Positions 5,251-57,844 of a stretch of DNA of 64,000 bases are shown in pieces. A program made the position numbers and the translations under genes. The notes beneath the pieces are model-generated. The model was given only the letters and a program-made list of their open reading frames with translations. It made no database searches and was not told where the DNA came from. Source of the DNA: Hygrophila difformis (lineage: Eukaryota; Streptophyta; Magnoliopsida; Lamiales; Acanthaceae); assembly GCA_030278955.1 (NCBI GenBank), contig JAOANR010000012.1:26281977-26345976 (forward strand). Direction: 5' to 3'. Within the stretch, counting starts at the first letter, position 1, and the number at the start of each line of letters is the position of its first letter.

Positions 5251-5388
5251 TATTATTTTACTATTATTTGTAGAATAATTATTATAATGTATTTTTAGTT
5301 TTAATACTAAAAATATAATTATTAATATAAATATTAAAATTATAAATTATTATTATTAATTTAATAATAGCAAAAATTATTTTGACTA
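5236..5388 (+). repeat. ~150-bp direct repeat, right copy (pair at 1727-1880)
   Basis: Matches 1727-1880 in the same orientation, from the TATCATTATTATTAATATT block to AATAGCAAAAAT. It overlaps the right 31-bp inverted repeat by a few bases. Confidence 0.7.
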
Positions 5389-26187: not shown

Positions 26188-26502
26188 TGTGAATTTTGAT
26201 ATCTCACACACACAAGACACTTTACACTTTTGATATCTAAAAGGATAACCAAAAGCGGAGAGTTGTATAGCTAAAGCTTGCTTTGTATTTCTTGCTTTGC
26301 TTCGCTCTGAGAATTACAATAATCTGAGTACCTATTTATAGAAATGAAAATGCACACAATACAATTAACACATGCTAAAACTATTCTTATAGTGGCTTCA
26401 ATAATTTCGGCGCCGTAGATGAGAATTCAACCGGACGGCTTTACTGTTACTTTGATGGCTTCAACAAATACGGCATTTGACGTTTATGCCGTTTTTCCAA
26501 CA
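26188..26502 (-). repeat. copia 3' LTR
   Basis: 315 bp, TG...CA ends, three differences from the 5' LTR at 52014-52328. On the - strand it contains CTATAAATAGG, a likely TATA box, near 26331-26341. Confidence 0.93.
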
Positions 26503-26512
26503 AAACTCCCCC
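26503..26512 (-). promoter_or_regulatory. copia polypurine tract
   Basis: Read on the - strand this is GGGGGAGTTT directly before the 3' LTR, the standard position for the plus-strand DNA primer. Confidence 0.85.
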
Positions 26513-30541: not shown

Positions 30542-30931
30542 TTGACCTGTATAATTTTTTTTAAATTCAAACAATATATATATATATTTATATATATATG
30601 ATAATGGCCAAAATTGTCCATTATTTCCAATCCATTTCCGTGTCTGAGACGGACATTTTGATCGTGATTCCATCTTATTTCAATAAGAAAGCAGTTGAAT
30701 TTGACAGATTAATGCGAGTTTGTAAAAACATTGAGCCGGTAATAAAAAGACACAAAATATGCAATTTTAATTGCATTTGTGTTAGAAAAATCCAAAAACA
30801 TGAAAAAAGGAAAAAGAAAAAAAAAAGGAATGAAAAGATGGGCAAAAGAATAAAAGAGCCCACAAAAATCCAAAAAGATGGGAAAAAGATTGAAAATCCC
30901 ACAACTGAAAATTTGGTTAAGTGATTGAAGC

Positions 30932-31390
30932 ACAATTCGAATTGTGAGCAATTCGAATTAATTCGAATTGCACAACAATTCGAATTGCTAAAGAGAGCAA
31001 GAAATGGTTAAGTGTTGGAAGGGATGCAGAAGGCTAGTTCGAATTATTCAAGTTCGAATTAATTCGAATTAGGGAATGAAGAGAGAAGAAGCCTAATTCG
31101 AATTATTCAAGTTCGAATTAATTCGAATTAGGGAATGAAGAGAGAAGAAGCCCAAAGGCAAGAAGAAGATGCAATTCGAATTGTCCAATTCGAATTAATT
31201 CGAATTGGCACAAACAATTCGAATTGCCAACAAGTGCAAGGAAGCCAAGCAGAAATCCTCATCCAATTCGAGAAATACCAATTCGAATTATCACAACAAT
31301 TCGAATTGACTACTGAAGGCTACAACTCCAACTCAAAGAAGGGATCTCACAATTCGAATTAATTCGAATTGGCTGAGATAATTCGAACTT
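30932..31390. repeat. palindrome array A upstream of the LTR promoter
   Basis: AATTCGAATT recurs about 15 times. Five sites are doubled head to head (30949-30970, near 31053, near 31113, 31185-31206, 31351-31372), making perfect 16-22 bp palindromes. Each doubled unit holds two CpG sites in CpG-poor DNA. The last one ends about 70 bp before the TATA box. Confidence 0.95.
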
Positions 31391-31440
31391 CAGATGTGGA
31401 GCAAGAACACAACATTGGTGGGCCTAGGGTTTTGAAGATT

Positions 31441-31450
31441 GTCTATAAAA
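31441..31450 (+). promoter_or_regulatory. LTR TATA box
   Basis: GTCTATAAAAGCAG, a strong plant TATA box, about 70 bp downstream of palindrome array A. The identical site is at about 47453-47461 in the other LTR. Confidence 0.7.
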
Positions 31451-32315
31451 GCAGACCTTCCACAACAGAATCAAGAGATCAAGAATTTTAACCAAAAGGC
31501 AGCTTGGGACAAAAAGAACAACAGGAGGTTCCACACCCCTTAAGGGTTAGGTAGGTAGTTTAGATTAGTTTAGTTTATTTTTCTTGCAAGTTTTATAATC
31601 TTTACATGCTTTAATCTTAGTTTAGTGTAGAAGCAGTTTGTGTAATCCTTAGAGTAGCCATTTTCCATATGTCTACATGCTTTCTAGTTAGAATAAACCC
31701 TACCTTCAAGCTAATGATGGTTTTGAGTTCTTTATTTTGCTTTCAAGTGTCAATACAAGGAAAATTTCCAGAAATGGTTTTATCCATTTGTTTTGGCACT
31801 CTTTAATGCTTTCTCTAGAAATAAATGCTTAGTGTGTTTGTTTGTTTCAACTAGGTTACATTTATTATGTCCTAGTTGACATTCAAACTTAATAAATGCA
31901 TGTTTGTTGGGTTTTTGGCTTGATTTAGTGCCTTAGAGCTTCAAATAAGTGTTCTTAGGTTTTAGATGTTTTTAATGTCTGTGTTTAGTTGTATTTTAAT
32001 TTTATTCTTCCTGCCTTAATCTTATTTCGTGCTTCCTTAGATAACTTGTGTGTTCTTAGTTTACTCATGTAGTTCTTAGATAACTAGATGTTTTAGGCTC
32101 TTTGATCTCTGATTTCTTGTTTGTAGAAATAGGGTTTGAATCTGGCCAATACCCACTAGACATGTATTTGTTTATTTCTTGAAAATCTCACTAGGGTGGC
32201 TGTGAAATGACACTGATGTGATATGAGGGATTTAGTAAATCTAAACCCATCATTACAGTACAGTGTTCACCTAACCCATACTTGTGAGAACAAAAATTGT
32301 TGTTGTCTGAAAATA

Positions 32316-32775
32316 TGTGATTCGAATTGAGGCAATTCGAATTAATTCGAATTGCTAAGAGAAATTCGAATTGCATAGCCAACTATTCTCTTCATGTGGT
32401 TTCCAACCAATTCGAATTAATTCGAATTGCCCAACAATTCGAATTGGCTTGAAAACCACATTGTATCCATTGCCACCCATTCATGCCTTAGTTTATTTTC
32501 CATCCTTTACCAATTCGAATTGTTGCAATTCGAATTAATTCGAATTGCTGTATAATTCGAACTCACCCTCCCTTTGAGGTAAATGCCTTAGTCAATTTGA
32601 GCAAGAAAGGGACTTCGCCAATTCGAATTGTCCAATTCGAATTAATTCGAATTGGCCAATAATTCGAATTGGATGATGCTCCAATTTCTAGCAATGATCA
32701 ATTGAGTAAGTGATACTTCATCCTTCATGCATGCTCAATTCGAATTACCCCAATAATTCGAATTGCACTATCCCT
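32316..32775. repeat. palindrome array B, downstream of the LTR TATA box
   Basis: Four doubled AATTCGAATT palindromes (near 32334, 32408, 32527 and 32634) and several single copies, within what would be transcribed leader. One block (about 32619-32673) is inverted in the 3' LTR. Confidence 0.95.
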
Positions 32776-35179
32776 TCTATTTTGGAAACTCCAAAAATAT
32801 TTTCTTTCATGATTTGTGTAAGTTGCATGGGTGTATTGGGCCTAGGCCCAATTCATCTGATTTCTATCCATTACACATCTCAACCCATTAGTGTCCAATC
32901 ATTGTGTGCTTAACACCCACACAATACCAAAAATATTTTCTTACTTTCTTATTTTCTCTTTCAGTGTGTATATGAATGGATAATGAGAAACACCACAGAT
33001 TAATGTTGGTGAAAGGTCCCTTCACAGGGATATCGACTAACCCGTCTTCTGTGTGTCAATCATTATTTGTTATTTTGCATGATCTGGTTAGTGGTTGGTG
33101 GAAGCTTCGGCGAGCGTTCTCTTTACTAAGAGTTTCGATTAGTCACTCAGCCAACTCCTAATCAGATACAGTTTTAATTTTCCTTATCTTAATTTCTCAA
33201 CCTGAATTCAAGTTGCAATAGTATCAACTGATGTCGACCAACATCAGTTGAGAAATATTACAGCAAGAACTATGTGGGTTATTCTTCCACTCACAGACAA
33301 AAGAAAACTAAATGACGGCGGTCACCGTTGTTTGGGCTTCTTTCTGTCTAAAATCAGTCATCTGGGATAATTGGGAACCGGACAGCAGATGTTTGCAGCA
33401 CGGAAAACCCCAACTATCTCTGGCACTCTTTTAGCCGATTTCTCCTCATCTCAGGCTAATCCACTTTTGTGTATCGCATTCTGTCTAACCCCACCATATA
33501 TTTTGGGGTATTTTATTTTCCTTTTCATATACTCGTATGCATGATACTATTATGTAGATGTTCTGGTCTTATTGCTATTTTGGGGATCCTTCCCCTTGGA
33601 CAGAGAAGTCTTGATTTAAATCGGATGTTGCATAATAAACTTCCAACAAAAATTCCTTTATAAAATCCGGATCTGAGTAAGGGATAGATTCGACAGTTAT
33701 GACTAATTCATCTTCCACTGGGGATTGATTTTGAGAGCTTAGAAGCAGAGTCAGCGATTAGGTCTCACATAGACTGAAAGGATCTGTGTTTTAATTGAGA
33801 GTCTAGTACCAGTATAGGGAATGATTTTCAAATATCAATTTGCTTCTCAAAATTGTTGTGTGTTGGAAATCTGATATTAGATATCGCATTAAGTCAATAC
33901 CCACTTGGGTATGGATGAGATGTGATAAATAATATTAGAGGAACAACATATAGGCCTTGGTGAATTTATAAGGTAAGGTCGAGTATTCCTTCGACTACTA
34001 TCTTCTTCTGCCAAAGTCTAGAATTGAGTCTTGAGTGAGTACATCCGGAATAGGTTCATTTATGGATCTGTTTCATTTAGTTTGTATCTCATAACTACTC
34101 AGATGTTGTAAGCCCTGTGGCTTATTGATATCTTGGGGGTTCTTGATCTGCATCTGGTCACCAAGACCAGGGGCTCTTTTATACTAACGGAAAGAGACGT
34201 TTTTAACAATTCCGAGTGATAGATTTAAATGCTTTCTTTACAGCTTTCTTTACTGCTTTCCTTTTAAATGCTTTCATAGAGGTCACTCGGAAGAATTAGG
34301 GGCTGTCCATCTGTTAAAAGGTTTGAGAGTTATGGAATGGTTTGGGGCTTGATTTGAAACTTTGGATGTGACATGGGGGAGTGATAGCAGTACTTGCCAT
34401 GTCAACTAATGATTTGACAGGTGTTGCTCGTCCACCGTAAATGATTAACATACTTTTGCAAGGCATTGCAAAGGGAGTTAAGAGTTTATGGTATCTTAGA
34501 AATTGCTGTCTTAAGAGCATGTAAACTCTTACTGTAAGTACCTGTCTGTTAAAGGGAACATGGTATAGAGAGCATGAGAGTTAGCTAACTGGAGGATTAT
34601 CCCAAGCTAAGATCTGTGTATTAAAAATGGAAGTTCAATTGTGTTTCATCTGAATCTTGTCCAATCTTTATTATTTCCTCCCTGTCCCTTCTGTCATATT
34701 TAAATCTGCTTTCTAGATAGTGTAGCATAATTTCATATGGCTTTCGTAGTATAGATTTAATTGCTTTCTTCGATCTCGTTTACCATGCTTTGTAGAATAA
34801 TTTTTACTGCTTTCATGATCTGGTTTAATTTATGTCAAGTAGTTGTTAGAAATCATTGCAAAACTTGAAACGAGTAATCGAGTGGAAAATCTTAGTAAAC
34901 GACGTGGGCCCTGCTTCCATCGCACATCCTCCAGTGAACGATCCGGTACTTACTATAAATTACTGCAATTTTTGACCCGTGCGCTTTCGGGAGCACAGCT
35001 TCTTGACACGAGTAAATAAAAATAACATTTTGGGAAAATACTCATACAGTGGGAAGATGTTCAAGAATTTCATGGCAGGTATCTTCTTGACATGAAATTA
35101 AGAGAAGCATTATGGTGCAGATACCTAGGACTTTCAGGGTGACAGACTGAAGGTCCATCCCGGTTGCACCGTGATACTT

Positions 35180-35525
35180 GTCAAAAGTTTCATGGCTGGA
35201 AGAACCACAGCGCCGTTTGAACCCCACAGGAGTAATAAAAAGGGAAATCTTAGTATATTCTTAAACCCCTTCCCCCAATCATAACTCTTTTCATGTAATA
35301 AATCCGAACTTGGAAATTGTATTCAGACGATTCTTCAACCCCTCCCAGCAGCAAAATGAAACTTGGCTTGGGTGCAAAAGTTTCATGGCCGTCACCGGGG
35401 ACTCTTGAGGGACCATTTGAAATCACAGTTTCCTCCTTAAGCAATAAATCAGTAAAAGAAATTTTCAGAAAATTACTCGTGTCGGCGAAGCTCGTCAAAA
35501 GTTTCATGGCGCCGTTGCCGGGGAG
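35180..35525 (+). repeat. ladder of LTR-end/primer-site-like segments
   Basis: Three segments start with (GT)CAAAAGTTTCATGG: 35180-35220, 35374-35420 and 35494-35540. The first and third continue to a CAGCGCCGTTT-like motif and the second to GTCACCGGGGA. Only the third is followed by a full primer site. The first two lie inside the LTR. Confidence 0.75.
35507..35524 (+). promoter_or_regulatory. Athila-type primer binding site
   Basis: TGGCGCCGTTGCCGGGGA begins right after the LTR's terminal CA. This sequence is known from Athila-like elements and is thought to pair with a tRNA-Asp 3' end. The short leader continues to 35653. Confidence 0.85.
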
Positions 35526-35653
35526 GATGCAGCGCCGTTTACTAGGAGAATTACATTCCTGATTTACTCATAGATAGTTCTTGTATATGTTCTCGAGCTG
35601 TTACTAACCTGGGGGTTGTACAGGTACTGTCAAAAGTTTGATACCACCTGCTT

Positions 35654-38600
35654 ATGCAACGGAGAAGGAGCACATTACCGGAGCTACCGTTCGATCTAGA
35701 AATAGAAAGGACCGCTCGCCAACTGAGGGCAGAAGCTAGAAAACGGAAGGAGCAGGAGCGTCAGAGCCGCACTTCACCAGAAACATCAAGCAGCGATCTA
35801 TCAGATATGACAGAAAACCAAAACATTCCCCCGATCTTACCCATAGACCAACCACCACATAACCTTGGTAATGGAGCTGACAGAGGAGTGGTAGAGCATC
35901 CTAATCGTGCCAACGAAGAGGAGAATCTACCAAATCCTGATCAGCAACAATACCAGCAATTCCACCAACAACCACCACCACCCGTAAATCAATTTCACCA
36001 AAACCAAAACATACCAAACCAACAATACCAAAACCAAGCTTTCAATCCAGATCAATTTCAGAACAACCCACAAGATCCACATAACTTCCAGCAATTTCCA
36101 AATTATCACCAACAGTACCAGAACCAAGCTGAACAAGGAAATCAACAACAGCAGCAAGCAGCAGCAGACTTCATGCAACCAATTGTAGAGCCCTATCTGG
36201 ATGGACCTAGGAGAGCACATTTTCCCGCACGCAATTTCGAGCTCAAACCGGCACTCATTAACTTGGTGCAAAACAATCAGTTCTGCGGCGCAAATCATGA
36301 AGACCCTCATGATCATCTCCAGACCTTCCTGGAGCTCTGCGACACGATCAAAAATCAGGGAGTCTCTCCTGATGCTATAAGGCTAATGTTGTTTCCATTT
36401 TCTTTATATAGTGGTGCCAGGGACTGGTATAAGTCATTGCCTATCAATCTGCGGAGCACTTGGGCAGACTTGGTGAGGAGCTTTTTGCTGAAGTATTTTC
36501 CAGAATCAAAGATTGAGGAAGGAAGAGCTAAGATTGGAGATTTTAAAATGAAGCCAGACGAATCATTATATGATGCGAAGGAGAGATTCTTGGGCCTCCT
36601 CAGGCGATGCCCCCAACATGGGTACGCACCATGGGAGCAATTGAGGAAATTCTACGGAGGACTCACCCAACCATGGAGAACAATGTTAGACGCCGCTGGC
36701 GGACGACATTTACTCCACTTGCCTATGGACCAAGCTTGGGAGAAGATTGAGACAATGTCTGTCAACAGATCCATCCTAAACACGGACGATAGGAAGGAGA
36801 ATCCTCCTAGAAAAGTCTTTGCTGTAAGTGAAGGGAAAACAGATTTTGAAAAACTGCAAGAACAGGTAGCTGCGATACAGCTGAGTCAGGATAAAGGGAA
36901 GGGAACGGACGCTTCCCAGGCAGGAACCTCATCAGACCAAGTTCAAACACCGCAATCGGGAGTTGTCTGTGGACTGTGTCAGGGACCTCATCCAACTGAC
37001 ACATGTCAACAGATAGCCACCGAAAGCTGTAATTATGCCGGGAACTACCAAAATCGCCATCCCAACCTCTCTTATTCCAACAACAATGCACTTAATGCGC
37101 ATTTGTTGCAGCCAAACCAGCCCAACCAGTTCCAAAACCCTCAGCAAAACTTCAGACCTCAGAACCAAGGATTCGTCCAGCAAAGAGTGCAGAACTTCCA
37201 AAATCAGAATCAGAGTTTCCAACCTCAAATCCAACAAAGGCCTAATCAGAACCAAGGCCAGAATTTCCAGAATTTCCAGCCCCAACCTGATCAGAATCAG
37301 CAATATAACCAAAGGCCACCATCTCGTTTGGAGAACTTGATGACTGAATTTATAGCCAACCAGAAGGATATAAATCAGCAACTGCAGTCATCAATCAAGA
37401 ATGTGAAGACGCAAGTCACCCAATTGGCCAAGGAACTACAGAACAGGGGGAAAGGAACACTTCCAAGCTGTACTGAAGCTAACCCGCAGTGTAAAGCAAT
37501 CACATTGCGGGGAGGCAAGACTCTGAAAGGAATTGTTGGACATGGAAAAGAGACGGCCGAGGAGGAAAAGGATCTAGTGGAGGGTGAAAAAGGAAGTGAA
37601 AGGATCGAAGGAGGAGATGGTATTGGACTGGACAAGGACAAACCAGAAACAGCTATTCCGCAGGCTGAAGCTGCAAAGGGAGCTGAAAAGGGTAGGGTTG
37701 AAGGTAAAATTTCCTTCTCTTTACCACCAAAAATAAATAATAATAAGTACATGCCAAGGGTGCCATACCCGGCACGTCTTAAAAATAAGGAGCAAGATGA
37801 AAAATTTAAAAAGTTTTTAGAAAGACTGAAAGCTGTCGAGATCACTATTCCATTGGTCGAAATGATTTCAGAAATGCCCGTCTATGCTAAATTTCTTAAA
37901 GAAATGATTTCAGGGAGGAGAAAAGCTGAGCAGGAGGAAGTAGTGGTTTTGAACAGTAGCTGCAGTGCCATTATCCAAAGAGTGCTACCGGAGAAGAAGG
38001 AAGATCCAGGATGCATTACATTGCCGATCCACATCGGGAAAACTAATGTTGGAAAAGGGTTGTGCGATCTAGGATCGAGCATCAACGTTATGCCACTTGC
38101 CATGGTGAAACGTCTTCACTTGGGGACAATTGAACCGGTTACAATGAAGTTACAGCTGGCAGACCGATCAATTACCCATCCAATCGGAATCCTGAAGGAC
38201 GTAATTGTCAAGACGGGATGGACTCTCTTCCCCGTCGACTTCATTATTTTGGATATAGAGGAGGATTACGAGATGCCACTGATCTTAGGCCGCCCCTTTC
38301 TCTCAACCGGCGGTGCACTTATAGACGCTCGATCAAATCAAATCAAGCTCCGAGTCGGAGAAGAAGAATTGGATTTCAACATGGGAAAGCTGCAGAAGTT
38401 CCCGTCTGAGGGATCTTGTTCCATTTTTGATGTAATAGATAGTAGGAGTGAGGATGAGAGCATAGACTCTGTGACTGATGAGCCGAGAAAAGTTTCAAAA
38501 CAGGTACTGAAGCCTGAAGGTGCAGAGCAACCAAGGAGCTGCAACGCTGTCCACTTCGAGGATCCTATCTCTGGAGACCTTGAAGAATTCGATGGAGTTG

Positions 38601-39490
38601 AGTTCATCCCGGAGGAAGAGGAAAGCACTGCTGAGGAGGAAATGGATCCTGTACTGACACAGGATCCTGAAGGTAAAACTGATCTCTCTCTCCCACCCAT
38701 TTCTCGCAAATTGCTGCCTTCCGTTGAATGCCCACCAGAGCTTGAACTTAAAATACTTCCGGATCATCTTAAGTACGTTTTTCTCACTGAACATAAAAGA
38801 TTACCGGTGATTGTGTCAGCCAAGCTGACACAAGAACAAGAAAAAGCTCTGGTAGACATTCTAAAGAAATATGTACATGCAATCGGATGGACCATTTCTG
38901 ATATAAAAGGAATAAGCCCCTCTGTTTGCATGCACAGAATTTTAATGGAAGAGGAGTATAAGCCCTCAAGGCAACCACAAAGGCGTCTGAACCCCCATAT
39001 GCAGGAAGTGGTAAGGAAAGAAGTTATCAAGCTCTTAAATGCTGGTATCATCTATCCTATCTCTGATAGCAAATGGGTTAGCCCAGTGCAGGTCGTACCG
39101 AAACGTGGGGGGATCTGTGTAACGACTAATGAGCAAGGAGAAGAAGTGGCGACGCGTCCAGTGACCGGTTGGAGAGTTTGCATCGACTACCGGAAGCTCA
39201 ATACCGCTACCAGGAAGGACCATTTCCCCTTGCCATTCATTGATCAGATGCTGGAGAGGTTGGCCGGAAGGGAGTACTACTGCTTTTTGGATGGGTATTC
39301 TGGCTATAATCAGATTGTAATAGCTAGCGAGGATCACGACAAGACCACATTCACATGCCCATATGGAACTTTTGCATACAGGCGCATGCCTTTTGGACTT
39401 TGTAATGCGCCTGCCACATTTCAAAGATGCATGATGTCAATTTTCTCAGAATTTATCGAAAAATGCATTGAAGTTTTGATGAATGCTTGA
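35654..39490 (+). pseudogene. Athila-type gag-protease-RT frame (1278 aa), RT active site deleted
   Basis: Residues 1-60 are basic. Residues ~75-175 are extremely Gln/Asn-rich. Residues ~180-375 are the retrotransposon gag domain (DHLQTFLELCDTIKNQGV, GARDWYKSLP, LLKYFPESKIEEGR). A short zinc-finger-like CGLCQGPHPTDTC lies near 438, and a second Gln/Asn-rich stretch at ~455-560. The aspartic protease has CDLGSSINVMPL near 802, with the Athila-type DLG. The reverse transcriptase starts near 1100 (EVVRKEVIKLLNAGIIYPIS, VPKRGG, WRVCIDYRKLN, FPLPFIDQMLERLAG, FLDGYSGYNQI, FGLCNAPATFQRCM). The frame stops right after KCIEVLMNA, exactly where the YxDD active site should follow. A deletion that also shifts the frame has removed both aspartates. 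Confidence 0.93.
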
Positions 39491-41607
39491 CTAATCTTGC
39501 ACAAATTTTGAAAAGATGTGAGGACACCAACCTAGTTTTGAACTGGGAGAAGTGCCATTTCATGGTCACCGAAGGAATAGTGTTGGGTCACCGCATCTCG
39601 CGCGCAGGTATCGAAGTCGACAGAGCTAAGGTTTCCGTCATCTCAAACCTCCCATTGCCTAATTCAATAAAAGCAGTTAGGAGTTTCTTAGGGCATGCCG
39701 GTTTCTACCGGAGATTCATAAAAGACTTTTCTAAAATTGCCAAGCCGCTCACTAACTTGCTTTGTAAAGAGAACCCTTTTGTAATAAATGAAGCGTGTGT
39801 TCAAGCCTTTGACACGCTCAAAGAAATGTTGATTTCCGCTCCAATAGTGCAACCACCCGATTGGTCAATGCCTTTCGAGGTAATGTGTGATGCAAGTGAT
39901 CTCGCCGTGGGTGCAGTTCTTGGGCAACATAAGGAAGGGAAGCATTGTGTAATTCATTACGCAAGTCATGCCCTGAATGAGGCCCAAATTAACTACACCA
40001 CCACGGAGAAGGAGATGTATGCTGTGGTTTTTGCGTTTGACAAATTCAGACAATATCTTATTGGTACAAAAACCACAGTGTACACAGATCACTCTGCACT
40101 GAGATACTTGTTTAGCAAACAAGACGCCAAACCTCGATTAATCAGGTGGGTACTTTTGTTGCAAGAATTTAACATTATAATAAAAGATAGAAAAGGCAGA
40201 GACAATGGTGCTGCTGACCATTTGTCTCGACTAGAAAATGATAAAAATGAGCTAGCCGTAAATGAGAATTTTCCGGACGAGCAACTGTTTGCCTTGCATC
40301 TTCATGATCAAGCTTGCCCGTGGTTTTCCGATATTGCTAACTTTTTAGCATGTGGAATAACCCCACCATTTCAAAGCAGAGGCCACAAAGCGAGGTTCAA
40401 CCGAGATGTAGTTAACTACTTCTGGGAAGACCCTTACCCCTTCAAGCATTGTGCAGATTCGATTATCAGACGATGTGTAACTGAGCACGAGGCTTATCAA
40501 ATCGCTAAGAAATGCCATGAATCGGAATATGGAGGTCACCATGGCCCCACTCGAACAGCTCATAAGGTACTCGAGTGCGGTTTTTATTGGCCTACCATTT
40601 ACGAGGACTGCAAAGCGTTTGTTAAAGCTTGCGACAGATGCCAAAGACTAGGGAATATCTCCAAGAGGGATGAGATGCCTCAACAAGGAATTCTCACTCT
40701 CGAGATTTTCGATGTATGGGGTATTGACTTCATGGGACCATTTCCGACATCTGATGGGAACCATTACATCTTGGTAGCTGTCGATTACGTTTCCAAGTGG
40801 GTTGAGGCTGTTGCACTGCCAACCAATGATGGCAACCAGGTCGTCAAATTTTTGAAAAATAACATTTTCAATAGATTTGGTGTACCCAGGGTGATCATAT
40901 CAGATGGAGGAACCCATTTTGTTAATAAAGCATTTGCAAATCTCATGAACAAAAATGGGATTCTCCACAAGATCGGCACGCCTTATCATCCCCAAACCAG
41001 TGGTCAGGTCGAGGTCTCTAACCGCGAAATCAAACACATACTCGAGGCCACTGTGGGGACAACTCGCAAAGATTGGTCACGTAAGCTCAATGATGCTTTA
41101 TGGGCATACCGCACTGCATTCAAGACTCCCATTGGGATGTCTCCTTACAGACTCATCTTCGGAAAAGCCTGTCATTTGCCCGTAGAACTAGAGCATAAGG
41201 CTTACTGGGCCGTACGAATGCTCAATTTTGACCACCGAGTTGCTCAGAGTAAGCGCAAGTTGGACCTCAATGAAATTGAGGAAATACGTGCGCAAGCTTA
41301 TGAAAGCTCGAGGATTTATAAAGAGCGGACCCAGAAGTTACATGATCGTCGTATTAAATCTAAACACTTCTATGTTGGCCAGAATGTCTTGTTATTTAAT
41401 TCTAGGTTGAAGCTATTCCCCGGAAAGCTTAAATCCAGATGGGAAGGGCCATACGAAGTGATGCACGTGTTTGAAAGTGGAGCTGTCAGGATCTGAACTG
41501 ACAAGGGAGAGCTGGTGGTGAATGGACACAGGCTGAAGGAGTATCTTGGGCAGTTCGACCCCGAAAAAGAAGCTCAGATGACAACAGAACCGGCTTATGT
41601 TCAATAA
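39487..41607 (+). pseudogene. Athila-type pol: RT end, RNase H, integrase
   Basis: This frame resumes with [28 protein letters not shown] (shown only to mark the join; it follows the lost YxDD). RNase H comes next ([48 protein letters not shown]). Integrase follows: zinc-binding H/C residues in [15 protein letters not shown] and [14 protein letters not shown] with Asp in [10 protein letters not shown], Asp in IISDGGTHF and Glu in [12 protein letters not shown]. The C-terminal domain ([18 protein letters not shown]) is cut by a TGA at 41494-41496. The same frame continues in typical sequence (VNGHRLKEYLG) to TAA at 41605-41607. Confidence 0.93.
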
Positions 41608-42040
41608 ATATTATACATATATTTACTTACTTATTTATTACTTTCTTCATTTATTTTATTGGGACAAAGTATCCAAAAATCAAGTGAACATTTAGAGTAC
41701 TAACACTCTAAATGTGAGGATGTTGATATTTGGAGAAAACCTAATACCTTTTCATAATTGTTTTGCAGGAATTCGAGGAACCAACAAAAAGAAAGATAAA
41801 GCTTCCAAAAATCAGGTTCCCGGTTGGGGTAACATTATATTTAATGGAGGTTGATTTTGGAATTTAGAGAAATCTAAAATCCAGAATACATTCATAAAAT
41901 AAAATTGTTAACCCAACCTAATTTATGCAAGCAATATGTTTTAGATTCTCTTTCGGTGTAGATATGTTTGCTTTTGAGTTCATATAATTTTTGGAAAATC
42001 TAAAATTTTCCTAAGTCTTGAATGTGGTATACTTCTCATT
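41608..42040. other. post-pol spacer with internal polypurine/LTR-junction copy
   Basis: Non-coding. At 41709-41728 it contains TAAATGTGAGGATGTTGATA, identical to the 20 bp spanning the real polypurine tract and LTR start at 46594-46613. This copy is ~100 bp past the pol stop, where a Ty3 element would normally end. Confidence 0.8.
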
Positions 42041-42044
42041 TCAA

Positions 42045-42570
42045 GAAAATTCAAATTAATTCGAATTGCTTGGAACATACCACATAAGACATTTTGCCTT
42101 GGAATTTTTCACTTTCGGATCTGTTAATTCGAGTTATTCTAGCAATTCGAATTAATTCGAATTGCCCTGAAAATTCGAATTGGCAACCAAGGCAAACAAA
42201 TTTTCGGATTTATATAGGCCAAGTAGTGCAATTCGAATTATAAGGCAATTCGAATTATTCGAATTGCCTAACTAATTCGAATTGGCAGGCACAAGGAATT
42301 TTCTTTAGCAAGTGAGCAATTCGAGTTATTCTAGCAATTCGAATTAATTCGAATTGCCTGAATAATCCGAATTAGCTCATTTCAGCCTTGTGTAAATTTT
42401 GCCCACATTCTCAAGTTCGAATTGTGAGTCAATTCGAATTAATTCGAATTGATCTCAATAATTCGAACCTGCTTGGTTTCTCTGTTTTTCAAGCCAATTC
42501 GAATTAATTCGAATTGGCCTGAATAACTCGCATCTCTCACAGATAGCATCAATTCGAATTAATTCAAATT
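42045..42570. repeat. palindrome array C upstream of the internal promoter
   Basis: Doubled AATTCGAATT palindromes at about 42143, 42333, 42431 and 42495, with variants at 42055, 42245 and 42550 and several single copies (some ATTCGAGTTATT). It is the same motif family as in the LTRs and again ends just before a TATA-like box. Confidence 0.93.
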
Positions 42571-42603
42571 GATGCAATAACTCGAACTCCCCTTCCAAAA
42601 TCC

Positions 42604-42748
42604 TTTTTATACCCTTCTTTCCCTCTCATTTCCCTCACTTTCACTTTCCACATTTCCAAAACACCCGTGTTTTCTCTCTCGCGAACCCTTATTCCTCGCG
42701 AAAACCAGTCGCTTATTTCAAGCCTTCCTCCGGCCAAATCACTCGGAA
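42604..42748 (+). promoter_or_regulatory. internal promoter and 5' UTR of the F-box gene
   Basis: TTTTTATACCC at 42604-42614 is TATA-like. It is followed by a C/T-rich stretch typical of plant transcription starts (about 42615-42690), and then the ATG at 42749. It sits 30-40 bp after palindrome array C, repeating the array-then-TATA arrangement of the LTR. Confidence 0.6.
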
Positions 42749-44875
42749 ATGGCTTCTTCTTCGTCTAATCCAAGTGGGAGCAGGGGGTAAGTGCTTCTTT
42801 TCCATTTTCGCACTCGGTTTTCGCAGTTTTTAGTTTGTCTCTTCGTATTCCTTGTGAAATCGAGGTTGGGGAGGGAATGTGTTTCGTTTTTCATGATGGG
42901 GATGGTCGGAATGTGCCCGGAATGTGTTAGGTTGTTCGGGAATAAGGATAAAACCACTAGGGCAGAACCTAAATTTTTTAGGGCTTTTTGTGAAACTGCC
43001 ATTGATGGAGTCGAGTGTTTCTGTGAAGGGAAATTCTTTTATTTTGAAAATGAGGGTCTCAAAACCCTTAAAGATTTGATTTTTGTTCATATTGCAGTAT
43101 TGTTGTTCCATTTGTGTCTTTGTGTGTATTTGTGTTATCTGTATTTGTGTTTTGCTAATCTGTGAATAGGGTTAACACGGTGGTCATGCTTGGTTCAGCC
43201 ACTGTGTTGTTTTTCAGTAGATAATTGTTGATGATGACTGAAAATGCATATCGATACTATCTGCAAAATTTATGTCTTTAAGGCATGAGTGTTGTTGGTG
43301 ACATTAGTACATTACAGTAGTATAGATGGATCAACTGTCCTCGTTTCTGATAATGTTTGCATGTATAATATTATATGAATACTTTGGCAATAAATGCTTT
43401 TGTCGGGTACATGTTGCCCACATTTTGCAGACTCAACTCTAGAAGTTGATTTTTGCACATCCGGGACACATGGTACAGACGAAACCATGCCAAAATTTTT
43501 CCAACACTTGAGGCATGGCATTTATGTGTAAAAAGACAAAATGATAGATTGTTCTTTACCTTAAAGTGTTTGATCTTTGTCAACTTGGAACAAGTGGGAA
43601 ATACTTGTAAGGAATGTTTTGTTTTATTCCTTAAAAAACCACTTTCCAAAACAAAATCCAAATGGGGGACCACTTACACCCCCAATTTCATTAAATAAAC
43701 AAGTCAACACCTTTTCATAAAAATCCAAAAATCGCCTTTTGTATGTATGCATGTCTATTTTTATCTTTATTTTTTATTTTTGGTCATGGTCCATTATACA
43801 TACTAGTAATTGTATGATTTATCGCTTGCATTCGATTTTCATCATTAATCTCTTATCTTCCCTACCTCACACGATTTAAATCACTTCTTAAGTGATAAAA
43901 ATCAAATTCCTTCGTAGGCTCAATAACCTACGAAATTCTCTCTTTTTGGTCCTTTGACCACCTAAAAACATCTTAAACTATTTATAGTCCAAGAAAAATT
44001 TCTAAGGATCCAAGATCCTTATCTCTCTCTTGCTTTCCTTATTTTTGTTATAATAAGAGTAGATTTGATAATCTGACCCCTTGGACTTTCATAGTGTACC
44101 TCAAGTGAGACAGGTGCTAGAAAGTGAACTGTATTTCGAAGTGGCTGAAGGTATTAGGCTGAGGGTCTCAGACCTAATCATCTCTCCATGTCTTTTCAGA
44201 GACATCATCCCCCTAGCCCCAAACGAAGATCACGAGGAAGAAACCCAACTACTGGATCTGCCAGTGGAGCTCCTAGGAGAAATCCTCTCCCGCATCGGAG
44301 AGGATTGCATCAAGAAAGTATGGAGGGTCAGAGAAGTATGCACTAAGCTCAGGGACGCAGCTGATCTTCCCATCGTCTACAGAAGGTGTGAACTGGAAAC
44401 CACCATCGTCAAGATGTGGGAGCAGAGGTTGGAACCGCAAAAGGAGGCACTCATGGCCAAGTGCGAAGAGGCTGGCAACTACAACCTGAAACTCATCCCA
44501 GCCCTGCAGGCATTCGGAGCAGGAAACGAGACTCTGGCTTGTGAGCTGCTAAAGGAAGGGATTGAGGACAACCACAAGGCCTCAATCTTTGTCAGAGGAT
44601 TTATGCTGCTCAGCAAGCTGGACAATGAACAGGTCCAGCAAGGAATAGCGATGATCGACAAGATGGTGACAGACGAATCAATCATGGCATATGTGGGCAA
44701 CCGCGTCTTTGCATGGTTGATGGAAAGCCTGGAGACTCCTGATCTGTTCATTGACCAAGGACCCAGAGTCTACTGCCAAAAAGTGCTAGAGAATCAGGAT
44801 GACGAGGGAGATTACTGTTTGCCCTGCAGCCTAACAAACTTCGTCCATTGGAGCAGAATTTTCTTCCAAGGATAG
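42749..44875 (+). CDS. F-box protein with Sel1-like tail, two exons, inside the retrotransposon
   Basis: Exon 1 is 42749-42786 (MASSSSNPSGSRG), ending at a GTAAGT donor in phase 2. Exon 2 begins after CATAG at 44095, and the join keeps the frame, giving 272 residues ending at 44875. Residues ~60-105 are an F-box (LLDLPVELLGEILSRIGEDC, VREVCTKLRDAADLP). The remainder has the alternating pattern of plant At2g35280-like F-box proteins (ALQAFGAGNETLACELLKEG, ASIFVRGFMLL, AMIDKMV). F-box proteins bind SKP1 in SCF ubiquitin ligases and choose substrates through the C-terminal part; the substrate here is unknown. The 1308-bp intron (42787-44094) holds no other gene. The position is that of an env-like frame in Athila elements, but I see no transmembrane segment. 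Confidence 0.75.
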
Positions 44876-46593
44876 CGGGGAAAGATGCCGAAGAAGGACT
44901 GAATCTGTAAAGATTCACTTTTGACTGGACTCACTGGAACCGTATTTTGGTAACTTTCTGACTGATCTTTGACGCTAACCTATCCAAGTGTACAGCTTTG
45001 TCTGTATTGATGTCTGGTTGTAATTAAGGTCGTGTACTGTATAACGAACCTTAGAATTATCTGTTATGATGGGTGTACGACATATTTTGGGCAGTCGTAC
45101 ATTTATTGCTTTCCACAAGAGAATTTCGTCTTGAGTTCTCCATTTTTTGAAAAAGATGTGTGGACAGTCCAAGATGAATAAGTGACTGTCACGCCAAAAA
45201 CAAGCTGTGACATGCTTGCATGTTCACAGTATCTCTTTTTACTGCTTTCAATTAAACAAACCGGCATAAAACAAACATAAATCTGTCACCTAAATTCACA
45301 TGTTGAATTTAGGCTGATGACGAAATCTTCAGACTATTACATTGGGATAAAACAATTAAAAATATGCATGACATAAATTCTTGAAGTTTTGAGCTATAAA
45401 AATCCAATGATATGATCACTTGAAAGACTAACCAACTTTCATGTTGAGAATTTGATTGAATAAGTTGTAAGAATTTTTCAAAGGTTAGATTTGAGAATAA
45501 ATGTATGACATGATCAAACCGTCCCTTGTGAGATCTGAGCCGAGTCATTTTTACTCAATACTTCTTTGATTGTGTGAATCAATTCGATTAAAGGGCACTA
45601 GAACTTGCAATTGGGACCGATTCAAGACCATGCCATATTCCCGAAATCGAGCATATGATCGAGGCACTTAGAAAAACCCAAAATTTTGGCTTTCGTTTGA
45701 ATTCCAAACCCAAAAATATTTTCCCTTTAGGATTAACCAATCTGAGCCTTTAAACCTAATTTTTCTTTGAAGCCACTATATTACTCCTAGCCTTACAAAA
45801 AGACCAAGAAAATCAAACCCAAGTGTATATGAGCCATCCCATCAAGGCATAGTAATTTTTGATCATCCAGTATGTATCAATCGGTATGCTGTCAACCGAT
45901 TCAAAAAAAAAAAAAAAGTTGAGACCTATTCAACAAGAATGAATTGCAAATGACAAAGCAAATTAGACAAAGTCTAATGTCATGCAAAAGAAAAACAGAA
46001 AAACAAAAGAAAGATAGCAATAATGATGATAATAAATTCTGCAACATGCCAAGCTATGGTGGAATGGTGTCATGTCACTCTTTAGCCCAATAATTCCTTT
46101 TCCTACCAAATGTTACAACCGTATGCCCCGTTATAACCTTGAATAAGACCTCGGGATCTCGATTTGAAGAAATGAGCCGGTGGCGAGTTGGTCCAGTTGC
46201 AAGCTTATGGGAGAATTTAATTGAATTTGATCTTGAGCGTTAATGATAAAAGCCAATCTTGAGAGTGAGTGAACTTTCCGATTCTACTATATGTGAGGCT
46301 CTGCTTTGATTGATTAATGATTCATGTCATGCCTAAATTCAAGAATTAAGCCAATGCGATTTCTAAACACATATTCAAGAAGAATTAACAATAATGATTG
46401 ATTTGTGTGTTAACTCAAGTGAGAAGTATCATTCCATTAAACACTGCAACCAAGAGAGTTTAATACTTGTAATTTTGATTGTCTTATCCCAATATAAAAA
46501 GAATGAAATTTCTGAGGCCACGCAAATGGATTGAATATGCAGAGTCCAAGCTCCTAAGAGCACTGACTCTGACTGCTCGGGGACGATCAGTAT
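44876..46593. other. 3' non-coding region between the F-box gene and the 3' LTR
   Basis: No supported gene. An A run lies at 45904-45918. The region ends in TAAATGTGAGGATGT, the polypurine-tract region. Low-complexity AAGAAA stretches occur near 45985-46020. Confidence 0.5.
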
Positions 46594-46608
46594 TAAATGT
46601 GAGGATGT
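46594..46608 (+). promoter_or_regulatory. Athila-type polypurine tract region
   Basis: TAAATGTGAGGATGT directly precedes the TGATAATGG start of the 3' LTR. The purine core GAGGA is short, and the same 20-bp junction also occurs at 41709. Confidence 0.65.
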
Positions 46609-49600
46609 TGATAATGGCCAAAATTGTCCATTATTTCCAATCCATTTCCGTGTCTGAGACGGACATTTTGATCGTGATTCCATCTTATTTCAATAAGAAA
46701 GCAGTTGAATTTGACAGATTAATGCGAGTTTGTAAAAACATTGAGCCGGTAATAAAAAGACACAAAATATGCAATTTTAATTGCATTTGTGTTAGAAAAA
46801 TCCAAAAACATGAAAAAAAGAAAAAAGAAAAGAAAAAGGAATGAAAAGATGGGCAAAAGAATAAAAGAGCCCACAAAAATCCAAAAAGATGGGAAAAAGA
46901 TTGAAAATCCCACAACTGAAAATTTGGTTAAGTGATTGAAGCACAATTCGAATTGTGAGCAATTCGAATTAATTCGAATTGCACAACAATTCGAATTGCT
47001 AAAGAGATCAAGAAATGGTTAAGTGTTGGAAGGGATGCAGAAGGCTAGTTCGAATTATTCAAGTTCGAATTAATTCGAATTAGGGAATGAAGAGAGAAGA
47101 AGCCTAATTCGAATTATTCAAGTTCGAATTAATTCGAATTAGGGAATGAAGAGAGAAGAAGCCCAAAGGCAAGAAGAAGATGCAATTCGAATTGTCCAAT
47201 TCGAATTAATTCGAATTGGCACAAACAATTCGAATTGCCAACAAGTGCAAGGAAGCCAAGCAGAAATCCTCATCCAATTCGAGAAATACCAATTCGAATT
47301 ATCACAACAATTCGAATTGACTACTGAAGGCTACAACTCCAACTCAAAGAAGGGATCTCACAATTCGAATTAATTCGAATTGGCTGAGATAATTCGAACT
47401 TCAGCTGTGGAGCAAGAACACAACATTGGTGGGCCTAGGGTTTTGAAGATTGTCTATAAAAGCAGACCTTCCACAACAGAATCAAGAGATCAAGAATTTT
47501 AACCAAAAGGCAGCTTGGGACAAAAAGAACAACAGGAGGTTCCACACCCCTTAAGGGTTAGGTAGGTAGTTTAGATTAGTTTAGTTTATTTTTCTTGCAA
47601 GTTTTATAATCTTTACATGCTTTAATCTTAGTTTAGTGTAGAAGCAGTTTGTGTAACCCTTAGAGTAGCCATTTTCCATATGTCTACATGCTTTCTAGTT
47701 AGAATAAACCCTACCTTCAAGCTAATGATGGTTTTGGGTTCTTTATTTTGCTTTCAAGTGTCAATACAAGGAAAATTTCCAGAAATGGTTTTATCCATTT
47801 GTTTTGGCACTCTTTAATGCTTTCTCTAGAAATAAATGCTTAGTGTGTTTGTTTGTTTCAACTAGGTTACATTTATTATGTCCTAGTTGACATTCAAACT
47901 TAATAAATGCATGTTTGTTGGGTTTTTGGCTTGATTTAGTGCCTTAGAGCTTCAAATAAGTGTTCTTAGGTTTTAGATGTTTTTAATGTCTGTGTTTAGT
48001 TGTATTTTAATTTTATTCTTCCTGCCTTAATCTTATTTCGTGCTTCCTTAGATAACTTGTGTGTTCTTAGTTTACTCATGTAGTTCTTAGATAACTAGAT
48101 GTTTTAGGCTCTTTGATCTCTGATTTCTTGTTTGTAGAAATAGGGTTTGAATCTGGCCAATACCCACTAGACATGTATTTGTTTATTTCTTGAAAATCTC
48201 ACTAGGGTGGCTGTGAAATGACACTGATGTGAGATGAGGGATTTAGTAAATCTAAACCCATCATTACAGTACAGTGTTCACCTAACACATACTTGTGAGA
48301 ACAAAAATTGTTGTTGTCTGAAAATATGTGATTCGAATTGAGGCAATTCGAATTAATTCGAATTGCTAAGAGAAATTCGAATTGCATAGCCAACTATTCT
48401 CTTCATGTGGTTTCCAACCAATTCGAATTATCCAATTCGAATTAATTCGAATTGCCCAACCATTCGAATTGGCTTGAAAACCACATTGTATCCATTGCCA
48501 CCCATTCATGCCTTAGTTTATTTTCCATCCTTTACCAATTCGAATTGTTGCAATTCGAATTAATTCGAATTGCTGTATAATTCGAACTCACCCTCCCTTT
48601 GAGGTAAATGCCTTAGTCAATTTGAGCAAGAAAGGGACTTCGCCAATTCGAATTATTGGCCAATTCGAATTATTGGCCAATTCGAATTGGACAATTCGAA
48701 TTGGATGATGCTCCAATTTCTAGCAATGATCAATTGAGTAAGTGATACTTCATCCTTCATGCATGCTCAATTCGAATTACCCCAATAATTCGAATTGCAC
48801 TATCCCTTCTATTTTGGAAACTCCAAAAATATTTTCTTTCATGATTTGTGTAAGTTGCATGGGTGTATTGGGCCTAGGCCCAATTCATCTGATTTCTATC
48901 CATTACACATCTCAACCCATTAGTGTCCAATCATTGTGTGCTTAACACCCACACAATACCAAAAATATTTTCTTACTTTCTTATTTTCTCTTTCAGTGTG
49001 TATATGAATGGATAATGAGAAACACCACAGATTAATGTTGGTGAAAGGTCCCTTCACAGGGATATCGACTAACCCGTCTTCTGTGTGTCAATCATTATTT
49101 GTTATTTTGCATGATCTGGTTAGTGGTTGGTGGAAGCTTCGGCGAGCGTTCTCTTTACTAAGAGTTTCGATTAGTCACTCAGCCAACTCCTAATCAGATA
49201 CAGTTTTAATTTTCCTTATCTTAATTTCTCAACCTGAATTCAAGTTGCAATAGTATCAACTGATGTCGACCAACATCAGTTGAGAAATATTACAGCAAGA
49301 ACTATGTGGGTTATTCTTCCACTCACAGACAAAAGAAAACTAAATGACGGCGGTCACCGTTGTTTGGGCTTCTTTCTGTCTAAAATCAGTCATCTGGGAT
49401 AATTGGGAACCGGACAGCAGATGTTTGCAGCACGGAAAACCCCAACTATCTCTGGCACTCTTTTAGCCGATTTCTCCTCATCTCAGGCTAATCCACTTTT
49501 GTGTATCGCATTCTGTCTAACCCCACCATATATTTTGGGGTATTTTATTTTCCTTTTCATATACTCGTATGCATGATACTATTATGTAGATGTTCTGGTC

Positions 49601-51538
49601 TTATTGCTATTTTGGGGATCCTTCCCCTTGGACAGAGAAGTCTTGATTTAAATCGGATGTTGCATAATAAACTTCCAACAAAAATTCCTTTATAAAATCC
49701 GGATCTGAGTAAGGGATAGATTCGACAGTTATGACTAATTCATCTTCCACTGGGGATTGATTTTGAGAGCTTAGAAGCAGAGTCAGCGATTAGGTCTCAC
49801 ATAGACTGAAAGGATCTGTGTTTTAATTGAGAGTCTAGTACCAGTATAGGGAATGATTTTCAAATATCAATTTGCTTCTCAAAATTGCTGTGTGTTGGAA
49901 ATCTGATATTAGATATCGCATTAAGTCAATACCCACTTGGGTATGGATGAGATGTGATAAATAATATTAGAGGAACAACATATAGGCCTTGGTGAATTTA
50001 TAAGGTAAGGTCGAGTATTCCTTCGACTACTATCTTCTTCTGCCAAAGTCTAGAATTGAGTCTTGAGTGAGTACATCCGGAATAGGTTCATTTATGGATC
50101 TGTTTCATTTAGTTTGTATCTCATAACTACTCAGATGTTGTAAGCCCTGTGGCTTATTGATATCTTGGGGGTTCTTGATCTGCATCTGGTCACCAAGACC
50201 AGGGGCTCTTTTATACTAACGGAAAGAGACGTTTTTAACAATTCCGAGTGATAGATTTAAATGCTTTCTTTACAGCTTTCTTTACTGCTTTCCTTTTAAA
50301 TGCTTTCATAGAGGTCACTCGGAAGAATTAGGGGCTGTCCATCTGTTAAAAGGTTTGAGAGTTATGGAATGGTTTGGGGCTTGATTTGAAACTTTGGATG
50401 TGACATGGGGGAGTGATAGCAGTACTTGCCATGTCAACTAATGATTTGACAGGTGTTGCTCGTCCACCGTAAATGATTAACATACTTTTGCAAGGCATTG
50501 CAAAGGGAGTTAAGAGTTTATGGTATCTTAGAAATTGCTGTCTTAAGAGCATGTAAACTCTTACTGTAAGTACCTGTCTGTTAAAGGGAACATGGTATAG
50601 AGAGCATGAGAGTTAGCTAACTGGAGGATTATCCCAAGCTAAGATCTGTGTATTAAAAATGGAAGTTCAATTGTGTTTCATCTGAATCTTGTCCAATCTT
50701 TATTATTTCCTCCCTGTCCCTTCTGTCATATTTAAATCTGCTTTCTAGATAGTGTAGCATAATTTCATATGGCTTTCGTAGTATAGATTTAATTGCTTTC
50801 TTCGATCTCGTTTACCATGCTTTGTAGAATAATTTTTACTGCTTTCATGATCTGGTTTAATTTATGTCAAGTAGTTGTTAGAAATCATTGCAAAACTTGA
50901 AACGAGTAATCGAGTGGAAAATCTTAGTAAACGACGTGGGCCCTGCTTCCATCGCACATCCTCCAGTGAACGATCCGGTACTTACTATAAATTACTGCAA
51001 TTTTTGACCCGTGCGCTTTCGGGAGCACAGCTTCTTGACACGAGTAAATAAAAATAACATTTTGGGAAAATACTCATACAGTGGGAAGATGTTCAAGAAT
51101 TTCATGGCAGGTATCTTCTTGACATGAAATTAAGAGAAGCATTATGGTGCAGATACCTAGGACTTTCAGGGTGACAGACTGAAGGTCCATCCCGGTTGCA
51201 CCGTGATACTTGTCAAAAGTTTCATGGCTGGAAGAACCACAGCGCCGTTTGAACCCCACAGGAGTAATAAAAAGGGAAATCTTAGTATATTCTTAAACCC
51301 CTTCCCCCAATCATAACTCTTTTCATGTAATAAATCCGAACTTGGAAATTGTATTCAGACGATTCTTCAACCCCTCCCAGCAGCAAAATGAAACTTGGCT
51401 TGGGTGCAAAAGTTTCATGGCCGTCACCGGGGACTCTTGAGGGACCATTTGAAATCACAGTTTCCTCCTTAAGCAATAAATCAGTAAAAGAAATTTTCAG
51501 AAAATTACTCGTGTCGGCGAAGCTCGTCAAAAGTTTCA
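46609..51538 (+). repeat. Athila-type 3' LTR, 4930 bp
   Basis: Matches 30599-35506 with about ten substitutions by eye, a poly-purine length change near 46817, a 14-bp extra segment near 48428, and a rearranged palindromic block at about 48642-48704. It ends GTTTCA before ATATA. Confidence 0.95.
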
Positions 51539-52013: not shown

Positions 52014-52328
52014 TGTGAATTTTGATATCTCACACACACAAGACACTTTACACTTTTGATATCTAAAAGGATAACCAAAAGCGGAGAGTTGTATAGCTAA
52101 AGCTTGCTTTGTATTTCTTGCTTTGCTTCGCTCTGAGAATTACAATAATCTGAGTACCTATTTATAGAAATGAAAACGCACACAATACAATTAACACATG
52201 CTAAAACTATTCTTATAGTGGCTTCAATACTTTCGGCGCCGTAGATGAGAATTCAACCGGACGGCTTTACTGTTACTTTGATGGCTTCAACAAATACGGC
52301 ATTTGAAGTTTATGCCGTTTTTCCAACA
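52014..52328 (-). repeat. copia 5' LTR
   Basis: 315 bp, three differences from 26188-26502. ATAAC follows at 52329-52333. Confidence 0.93.
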
Positions 52329-52457
52329 ATAACTATATCGCGCATTTAGCTAACTTTTATTAGCAACTTTCATTGCCTGACATTTATTTACCTAACTTTT
52401 AGGTAAATGTTTATTACATTACCTAACCTTTACCCAACTATTAGGTAAAATTTCCTC

Positions 52458-56412: not shown

Positions 56413-56535
56413 TAGAGTTAAGAGAAACCTTAATTATATTTATTATTTATAAAACTATAATATTATTTAATTAAAATAATTTTCGTCCTTATATATCATT
56501 CTACATACTAAATATGTTATCTATTAATTAATATA

Positions 56536-57762
56536 GGAAAAAAAGATAAAATAGTCCTTTTTCTTTTCAAAAAATTCAAATCAGTCCTTTTTCTATTTTA
56601 TTACCAAAACAGTCCTCTACAAATGCTAATTATGTCCAAATCAGTCCTTTTTTCACTAATTATATTCTAATTGCTGACGTGGCAAGGGTTTTAATTTAAA
56701 CCTGACACGTGTGCATAATATTAGTCATTTTTCTTTTATCTTTTGTCAATTCAGTCCTAAACTTTTATTTTGTTCTATTTAGTCCTCTACCCCAATCACT
56801 CATTTTATATTAATTGGCCTCAAACATTTCAAATTATTTCATTTTAGGCCCAGAACCTTAAATTTTTTATTATTACTAATCCATTTATCAAATAAATGCA
56901 CAACATACTTCCATAAATAAAATTAAACACCAAACCTCATATATTGGGTTTGACTGCTTTGTTATCGGGTCTTTCAAGTACCGAAATTTTACGGACTCTC
57001 TCTAATAACCACTCGACCGCAACCGATTGTTCATTGGTTTTGATTTCCTTCAGTAACAATCAACAGAATCTTACTTTGCGTCCTACCTTAGGATGTAGCA
57101 ATATTTGAGTAAATGATTTAACTTGAATTTTTGGAAGGTTATGGATACAGGAAGCCTTGGTTTTATTGAAAAATATTAATATTATTAAAAATATTAAAAA
57201 AATAGCCTGAATTTTATTGTCCACAAAGTACGATTGTGCTGATTGTTGCTGAAGGAAACCAGAACCAATGAACCATCGTTACGGTCGGGTGGTTAGAGAG
57301 AGTCCGTAAAATTCGGAACTTCGAAGACCCGGTAACAAGGCGGTCAAACTCAATGTATGAGGTTTGGTATTTAATTTTATTTACGGAAGTATGTTGGGCA
57401 TTTATTTGATAAATGTATTAGTAATAATAAAAAATTTAAGATTCTGGGCCTAAAATGAAATAATTTGAAAGGTTTGATGCCAATTAATATAAAAATGAGT
57501 GATTGGGGTAGAGGACTAAATAGAACAAAATAAAAGTTTAGGACTGAATTGGCAAAAGATAAAAGAAAAAGGACTAATATTATGCACACGTGTCATGTTT
57601 AAATTAAAACCCTTGCCACGTCAGCAATTAGAATATAATTAGTGAAAAAAGGACTGATTTGGACATAATTAGCATTTGTAGAGGACTGTTTTGGTAATAA
57701 AATAGAAAAAGGACTGATTTGAATTTTTTGAAAAGAAAAAGGACTATTTTATCTTTTTTTCC
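56536..57762. mobile_element. foldback/MULE-type element with ~530-bp inverted ends
   Basis: Arms 56536-57065 and about 57235-57762 are inverted copies with scattered differences, starting GGAAAAAAAGATAAAATAGT. AATTAATATA (10 bp) flanks both sides (56526-56535 and 57763-57772). The ~170-bp loop is non-coding. Confidence 0.85.
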
Positions 57763-57844
57763 AATTAATATATGCTAATTTACCAAATACGTATAATGAA
57801 ATCTACTATTAATATTTACAGCTCAAATCTACTCTTAATGTATA

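Follow-up and report, generated by a model that had tools for sequence, protein, structure and literature searches.

An F-box gene in the env position of an Athila-like retrotransposon of Hygrophila difformis, apparently wired to the element through shared palindromes

Introduction

In the Sireviruses, which are Ty1/copia elements, clusters of a CpG-island palindromic motif with a CGG-CCG core have been described in the LTR, upstream of the TATA box, and in the linker upstream of ENV (PMC2829016). In that study, the motif was found in 13 Sireviruses and was absent from the classic copia elements compared, and the linker copies were absent from four elements without ENV (PMC2829016). Among Ty3/gypsy elements, the group of Athila, Calypso, Bagy2 and Diaspora is the relevant one. 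According to a published figure legend, the primer binding site (PBS) of Diaspora and Calypso pairs with tRNA-Asp, and in the env-less Diaspora the polypurine tract (PPT) is reported at 128 bp from the end of pol (PMC1142308).

Captured and accessory genes are already known in plant LTR elements. For example, in Gypsy elements of orchids an AlkB-like 2-ODD gene has been described as an additional ORF of a giant element (PMC9289625). The same survey covered 121 angiosperm genomes with 25,565 consensuses of LTR elements and reports 15 uncommon domains, each of them reaching at least five consensuses in a species (PMC9289625). The term "F-box" is absent from its main text, the main chart of which requires at least five consensuses per species (the full chart is a supplement), and its count was zero in the main texts of PMC7264820, PMC11963269, PMC11728184, PMC3726574, PMC2410132, PMC6317226 and PMC13317346. 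In the passages of openly accessible papers that the search covered, we found no LTR element described as having an F-box gene in its env region. An "LTR-gene" of the F-box family has been reported in Thlaspi arvense (PMC8764390) and a sunflower repeat database has F-box sequences among its five most abundant gene families (PMC3852528); unlike the case presented here, neither of these accounts, in the text available, mentions an env-slot position or an LTR-like promoter array.

Two further kinds of genetic parasite offer a comparison. Polerovirus P0 and nanovirus Clink are F-box proteins of plant viruses, and we know of no plant-virus F-box protein with a TPR_27 domain. VANDAL elements are DNA transposons, and their VANC protein is, to our knowledge, not an F-box protein. 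VANC proteins have been described to bind short arrayed motifs in noncoding parts of VANDAL (PMC5735166), and other F-box or F-box-like proteins have been reported from plant viruses, e.g., crinivirus p22 (PMC3588083, PMC6784205).

Here we describe a 64-kb stretch of DNA from Hygrophila difformis (referred to as the window, with positions counted from its first nucleotide) containing a retrotransposon with an F-box gene. What is new in it is that the gene looks wired to the element through shared palindromes and a copy of the PPT. Features are on the plus strand unless otherwise stated.

The host element

An LTR element with an Athila-type layout spans 30599–51538 (20.9 kb). Its 5' LTR (30599–35506, 4.9 kb) has 99.2% identity by BLAST to the 3' LTR (46609–51538), and both start with TG and end with CA. 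With 13 substitutions over 4906 aligned bases (K2P 0.0027, i.e., 0.27%) and five gaps, the two LTRs show that the retrotransposon proposed in the initial annotation is real. The insertion would be 0.10 or 0.19 million years old, assuming rates of 1.3e-8 or 7e-9, respectively. Of the five places where the LTRs differ in length, four fall at 32406–32656, within the region of the second palindrome array described below. The element is flanked by ATATA on either side, weak evidence for a target-site duplication since the left copy sits within an AT repeat. It interrupts a minus-strand element that, judged from its frames, looks like copia (LTRs at 26188–26507 and 52014–52334).

Immediately 3' of the 5' LTR is the PBS, TGGCGCCGTTGCCGGGGA (35507–35524), which we take to be of the tRNA-Asp type. 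The gag-pol region (35642–41607) gave Pfam matches to Retrotrans_gag, protease, RT, RNase H and integrase, the gag-PR-RT-RH-INT order of Ty3/gypsy (in 35642–41496, with the protease match below its cutoff). In this copy pol is broken by a frame change inside the RT near 39480 and by a TGA at 41494–41496, so that its transposition either was assisted or preceded the damage. The PBS and the layout suggest an Athila-like element, and it shares with Athila, Calypso, Bagy2 and Diaspora the tRNA-Asp-type PBS, the Ty3/gypsy domain order and a long stretch separating pol from the 3' LTR. It differs from them in its 4.9-kb LTRs with palindrome arrays and in having an F-box/TPR gene in the place of an env-like or ATHILA ORF-1 frame. 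No Pfam match to an env-like or ATHILA ORF-1/Transposase_32 domain was found after pol, either in 10 of the 51 listed frames or in the F-box protein, so that this feature of the Athila lineage, which is not universal in it, was not seen in the frames covered. Two weak Pfam matches between pol and the 3' LTR in these 10 frames, to MATH (E 0.025) and Per1 (E 0.14), were judged to be due to chance.

The sequence CAAAAGTTTCATGGC, made of the LTR terminus and the start of the PBS, is also present in two copies (at about 35182 and 35375) ahead of the true junction at 35507. Given these repeats in 35180–35510, the long LTR may have grown through shifts of its end. A fragment at 61626–61837 comes from a diverged relative and shares ca. 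82% identity with the initial 210 bp of the LTR. Elsewhere in the window there are three long self-inverted stretches that resemble foldback elements or large hairpins; identity to the reverse complement of the same stretch is 96% at 8110–10681 (2.6 kb), 86% at 10829–11761 (0.9 kb) and 88% at 56533–57765 (1.2 kb). About nine head-to-tail units of 270 bp, the last one diverged, occupy 2871–5330; the unit length is a multiple of three and the array is open in several frames on both strands. On the minus strand, a frame of 693 aa (19066–21147) has the appearance of a MULE-type transposase.

The F-box gene

As had been claimed, a gene with a putative intron is located in the env position of this element, where it lies downstream of pol and ahead of the 3' LTR in the sense orientation. 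Exon 1 (42749–42786, 38 nt) consists of 12 codons from the ATG at 42749 plus 2 nt, ending in phase 2. It is followed by a putative intron of 1308 bp (42787–44094, GTAAGT...CATAG, G+C 0.35), with the donor at 42787 and the acceptor AG at 44093–44094, and by exon 2 (44095–44875, 781 nt) with a TAG stop. The two-exon structure of the initial annotation therefore holds in its coordinates and matched phases, giving a spliced product of 272 aa without inner stop.

No frame in 500 order-1 Markov controls modelled on 41497–46608 reached the 267 aa, from stop to stop, of the exon-2 frame; the longest frames of the controls had a median of 113 and a 95th percentile of 157, and the largest, with 263, comes near it. 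The period-3 power of exon 2 was 7.19, whereas 2000 shuffles gave 3.34 or less and nine windows of 781 nt from the intron and flanks gave 0.09–1.19. Exon 2 is thus coding by composition. In the spliced protein, residues 120–217 match TPR_27 (PF23310, E 1.2e-7, 31.8 bits) above the Pfam cutoff of 27, and immediately upstream of it residues 66–110 match F-box-like (PF12937, E 0.001, 19.3 bits) below the cutoff of 24.3. The score of the F-box family itself is also below its cutoff (PF00646, E 0.0037, 17.6 bits, cutoff 20.5). With scores under the curated Pfam cutoffs, the F-box of the original description is credible by its position next to TPR_27; the Sel1-like tail named there is more aptly termed the plant TPR_27 domain, in keeping with the C-terminal interaction domain of F-box proteins. 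The combination is presumably that of the At2g35280-like plant F-box proteins, and the gene looks like a complete one of host type. A single-sequence AlphaFold2 model of the protein was too poor for use (mean pLDDT 40.5).

Within the exon-2 frame there is no methionine before residue 107 of 259, which lies past the F-box, and translation must therefore begin in an exon further upstream. The start codon of exon 1 has a G at both −3 and +4, and the donor of this exon is the single GTAAGT within 41497–44094 (a GTGAGT is present at 42424). The putative leader (42614–42748) is pyrimidine-rich and free of ATG. Over 42605–42748 the ATG count is zero, while 2.6 would be expected per 143 nt at the window average, an expectation that is too high for this leader because 101 of the 143 bases are C or T. 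With the acceptor fixed, 6.5% of 2000 null sequences contained, by chance, an open ATG exon in matching phase that ended at a GTAAGT donor; the figure rose to 25.7% when a looser set of donors was allowed. The 42786/44095 junction predicted from these signals is plausible, short of proof. The retention of an intron had been taken to mean capture at the DNA level, or splicing confined to the transcript of this gene. If real, the putative intron shows no more than that the template was either DNA or unspliced RNA.

Relatives of the gene were searched for in several datasets. The 272-aa protein had 840 word-sharing candidates in a set of 5.8 billion proteins, none of them at E ≤ 10, and 23 pattern stretches in bacterial and archaeal genome contigs, none confirmed. 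In the viral contigs of IMG/VR, four stretches for the exon-2 protein and nine for the second pol frame were likewise not confirmed, and the extended palindrome had no occurrence. The PBS pattern matched four contigs; when these were searched by tblastn with two pol frames and exon 2, the sole match was in the integrase region (46 residues, 37%, E 1.4e-6), with none for exon 2. Being bacterial, archaeal and viral, the contig sets say little about plants. Within the window there was no second F-box match better than E 5, and the NCBIfam profile search gave no match. Three PDB sequence matches (E 0.048–0.52), with no F-box chain among them, were judged to be chance.

Palindrome arrays and the internal LTR junction

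The palindrome TTCGAATTAATTCGAA occurs 23 times in the 64-kb window with up to two mismatches, against 0.06 expected. Nine occurrences are in the 5' LTR, eight in the 3' LTR, six before the F-box gene and none elsewhere. The first LTR array (30934–31390; ca. 46945–47400 in the 3' LTR) is upstream of a TATA box (31444 and 47455, respectively), and a second one (32321–32763) is downstream of it. The internal array (42050–42590) has six cores, four exact and two with one mismatch, and precedes a TATA-like site, TATACC (42608–42613), that probably serves the F-box gene and is followed by its leader. There are 18 half-sites in the internal array and 19 in the LTR array; the last one starts 62 bp ahead of the TATAAAA box in each LTR and 27 bp ahead of TATACC in the internal array. 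The CpG observed/expected ratio is 1.24–1.45 in the arrays (1.45 in the internal one) and 0.40–0.61 in exon 2, gag-pol, intron and later LTR, but this is no independent evidence since the motif itself contains CG.

The five lowest-E matches between the internal and the LTR array, ties excluded, were 82–90% identical over 52–57 bp. With LTRs only 0.27% apart, the internal array is no recent copy of the array in the present LTR, and it appears to be older in the lineage than this insertion. Its age says nothing on when the F-box exons came in. Symmetry of the palindrome units beyond the core was not supported by covariation: among 15 units (3' LTR excluded) arm identity was 9.7/22 within and 9.3 between units (permutation p 0.27). 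As single-stranded DNA, one unit gave a stable fold (z −8.9), which is uninformative because a long palindrome would do so in any case.

Clusters both upstream of the LTR TATA box and upstream of the gene in the env position are the arrangement of the Sirevirus-type motif. As in the Sireviruses, the palindromes are rich in CpG, but here the element is Ty3/gypsy, the core is TTCGAATTAATTCGAA and it is an F-box gene that stands behind the array. A second link is an exact copy of 20 bp of the PPT/LTR junction: the terminal one is at 46594–46613 and the internal one at 41709–41728, ca. 100 bp past the end of pol. The array of the LTR palindrome upstream of the gene, together with this second junction, lends support to the view that the F-box gene belongs to the element. 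A splice-acceptor-like sequence, TTGTTTTGCAG, is present at 41758–41768, shortly past the internal PPT copy, and is a possible site for an env-type subgenomic RNA.

Origin and role of the gene

The observation itself is real, and the interpretation first given to it is supported in part. Most likely the F-box gene was captured and serves the element as an accessory gene, a function that we infer. More precisely, we give an even chance to the explanation that a host-type F-box/TPR_27 gene was captured with its intron and kept in the env position under an LTR-like array. The Athila-like element would have taken up the gene as DNA or unspliced RNA and retained it as an accessory gene, to be transcribed in sense from an internal promoter bearing the LTR-type array. 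With the same palindromes at both promoters, the LTR and the F-box gene should switch on together. Splicing would add a leader of 13 residues onto the F-box/TPR frame. Docking to SCF is established behaviour of F-box proteins, and the product would probably dock SKP1 as an SCF adaptor, while the TPR region could bring a host protein to degradation, most usefully a silencing or restriction factor. That silencing factors are the target is a guess from the F-box proteins of plant viruses. These viruses are also genetic parasites with an F-box or F-box-like motif; the anti-silencing role of the polerovirus type first proposed for the gene is an analogy only.

This accessory-gene explanation is favoured by the coding frame with its periodicity, by TPR_27 above its cutoff with the F-box match directly upstream, and by the lack of a methionine before the F-box in exon 2 combined with an upstream ATG exon that has a consensus donor. 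The element-specific palindromes and the LTR-like layout before the gene also favour it, as does the Sirevirus precedent of motif clusters in the LTR and before ENV. The shared palindromes suggest, short of proof, that the element uses the gene. The accessory-gene explanation is weakened by the single copy known, the F-box scores below the Pfam cutoffs and the broken pol, and because an intact frame of 0.8 kb is expected even without selection at ca. 0.1–0.2 million years. Moreover, the array could predate the arrival of the F-box exons, the exon junction could be due to chance (6.5%), and the internal block has no convincing similarity to the LTR outside the PPT and the array.

This last point bears on a possible but tentative alternative, that a former 3' LTR left its U3 here, as the stretch bounded by the internal PPT copy and the TATA-like site, with the gene running from the old LTR promoter. 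The exact 20-bp copy at 41709 speaks for it, and so do the order of PPT, array and TATA, common to both places, and the distance from the PPT to the first intact half-site, 351 bp internally and 353 bp in the 3' LTR (341 bp internally if a mutated half at 42050 is counted). The distance of ca. 100 bp from the end of pol to the PPT is also similar to that reported for Diaspora (PMC1142308). However, comparing the rest of the internal block with the LTR gave no convincing similarity, with shuffles at least as good in a fraction of 0.04 upstream of the array and 0.48 downstream (200 shuffles). The block before the array could not be recognised as LTR-derived by its sequence, and the argument is one of architecture only. 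The composite could have formed if transcripts of the former LTR ran on into an adjacent F-box gene and recombination with another LTR took place afterwards, a route that we put forward with the same reserve. An origin of this kind would be a route of capture and is compatible with the accessory-gene explanation.

It is also possible, if somewhat doubtful, that the gene is a passenger without a role in the element, taken up from the host in a single transduction event that affected either this copy alone or a small subfamily. The array and the PPT copy would then belong to an older control region of env and lie upstream of the gene by coincidence. Captured genes are common in plant LTR elements (672 in rice, 1343 in sorghum), the insertion is young and the 64-kb window provides a single copy. 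Against a mere passenger, the gene is apparently complete, has the sense orientation and occupies the env slot immediately behind an element-specific array. Still, this explanation stays strong because one copy is known, its pol is broken and intactness over 0.1–0.2 million years is uninformative.

We consider it unlikely that the internal array serves the control of the whole element, by binding an anti-silencing or insulating protein as VANC does, with the F-box gene being incidental. VANDAL elements do resemble this one in having element-specific short motifs in noncoding arrays and an accessory gene, but their motifs are described as 9-mers in the same orientation, not palindromes (PMC5735166). 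The second LTR array, downstream of the TATA box, is no ordinary upstream element and would fit such a control. On the other hand, in the 10 frames covered, out of 51 listed for the region after pol, the best Pfam match had an E of 0.025, and the internal array immediately precedes the TATA-like site and the leader. Finally, that exon 1 is unused and exon 2 is spliced from genomic RNA to a leader exon of the 5' LTR, as in retroviral env mRNAs, would agree with the acceptor-like TTGTTTTGCAG, with an exon 2 that has no start of its own before the F-box and with a chosen junction only weakly improbable by chance, but is made very doubtful by the ATG-free leader of exon 1, the G at −3 and +4 and the sole GTAAGT.

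Implications

Accessory genes of plant LTR elements have mostly unknown functions. The regulatory link found here is unusual. The AlkB-like gene of the orchid elements is similar as a host-like domain in an additional ORF but encodes a demethylase and is present in 38 and 23 consensuses (PMC9289625). An F-box gene that shares the array of the LTR promoter would provide a clear biochemical hypothesis, SKP1 binding and target degradation, that can be tested for how the element counters its host, and it would suggest that the env-slot promoter wiring of the Sireviruses extends to Ty3/gypsy elements. A more far-reaching possibility, which we regard as improbable at this stage, is that the lineage swapped its env-like gene for a captured F-box/TPR gene under its own LTR-type array, so that activity of the LTR would produce an SCF adaptor removing a host silencing or restriction factor. 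If true, this would be a ubiquitin-ligase effector encoded by a retroelement.
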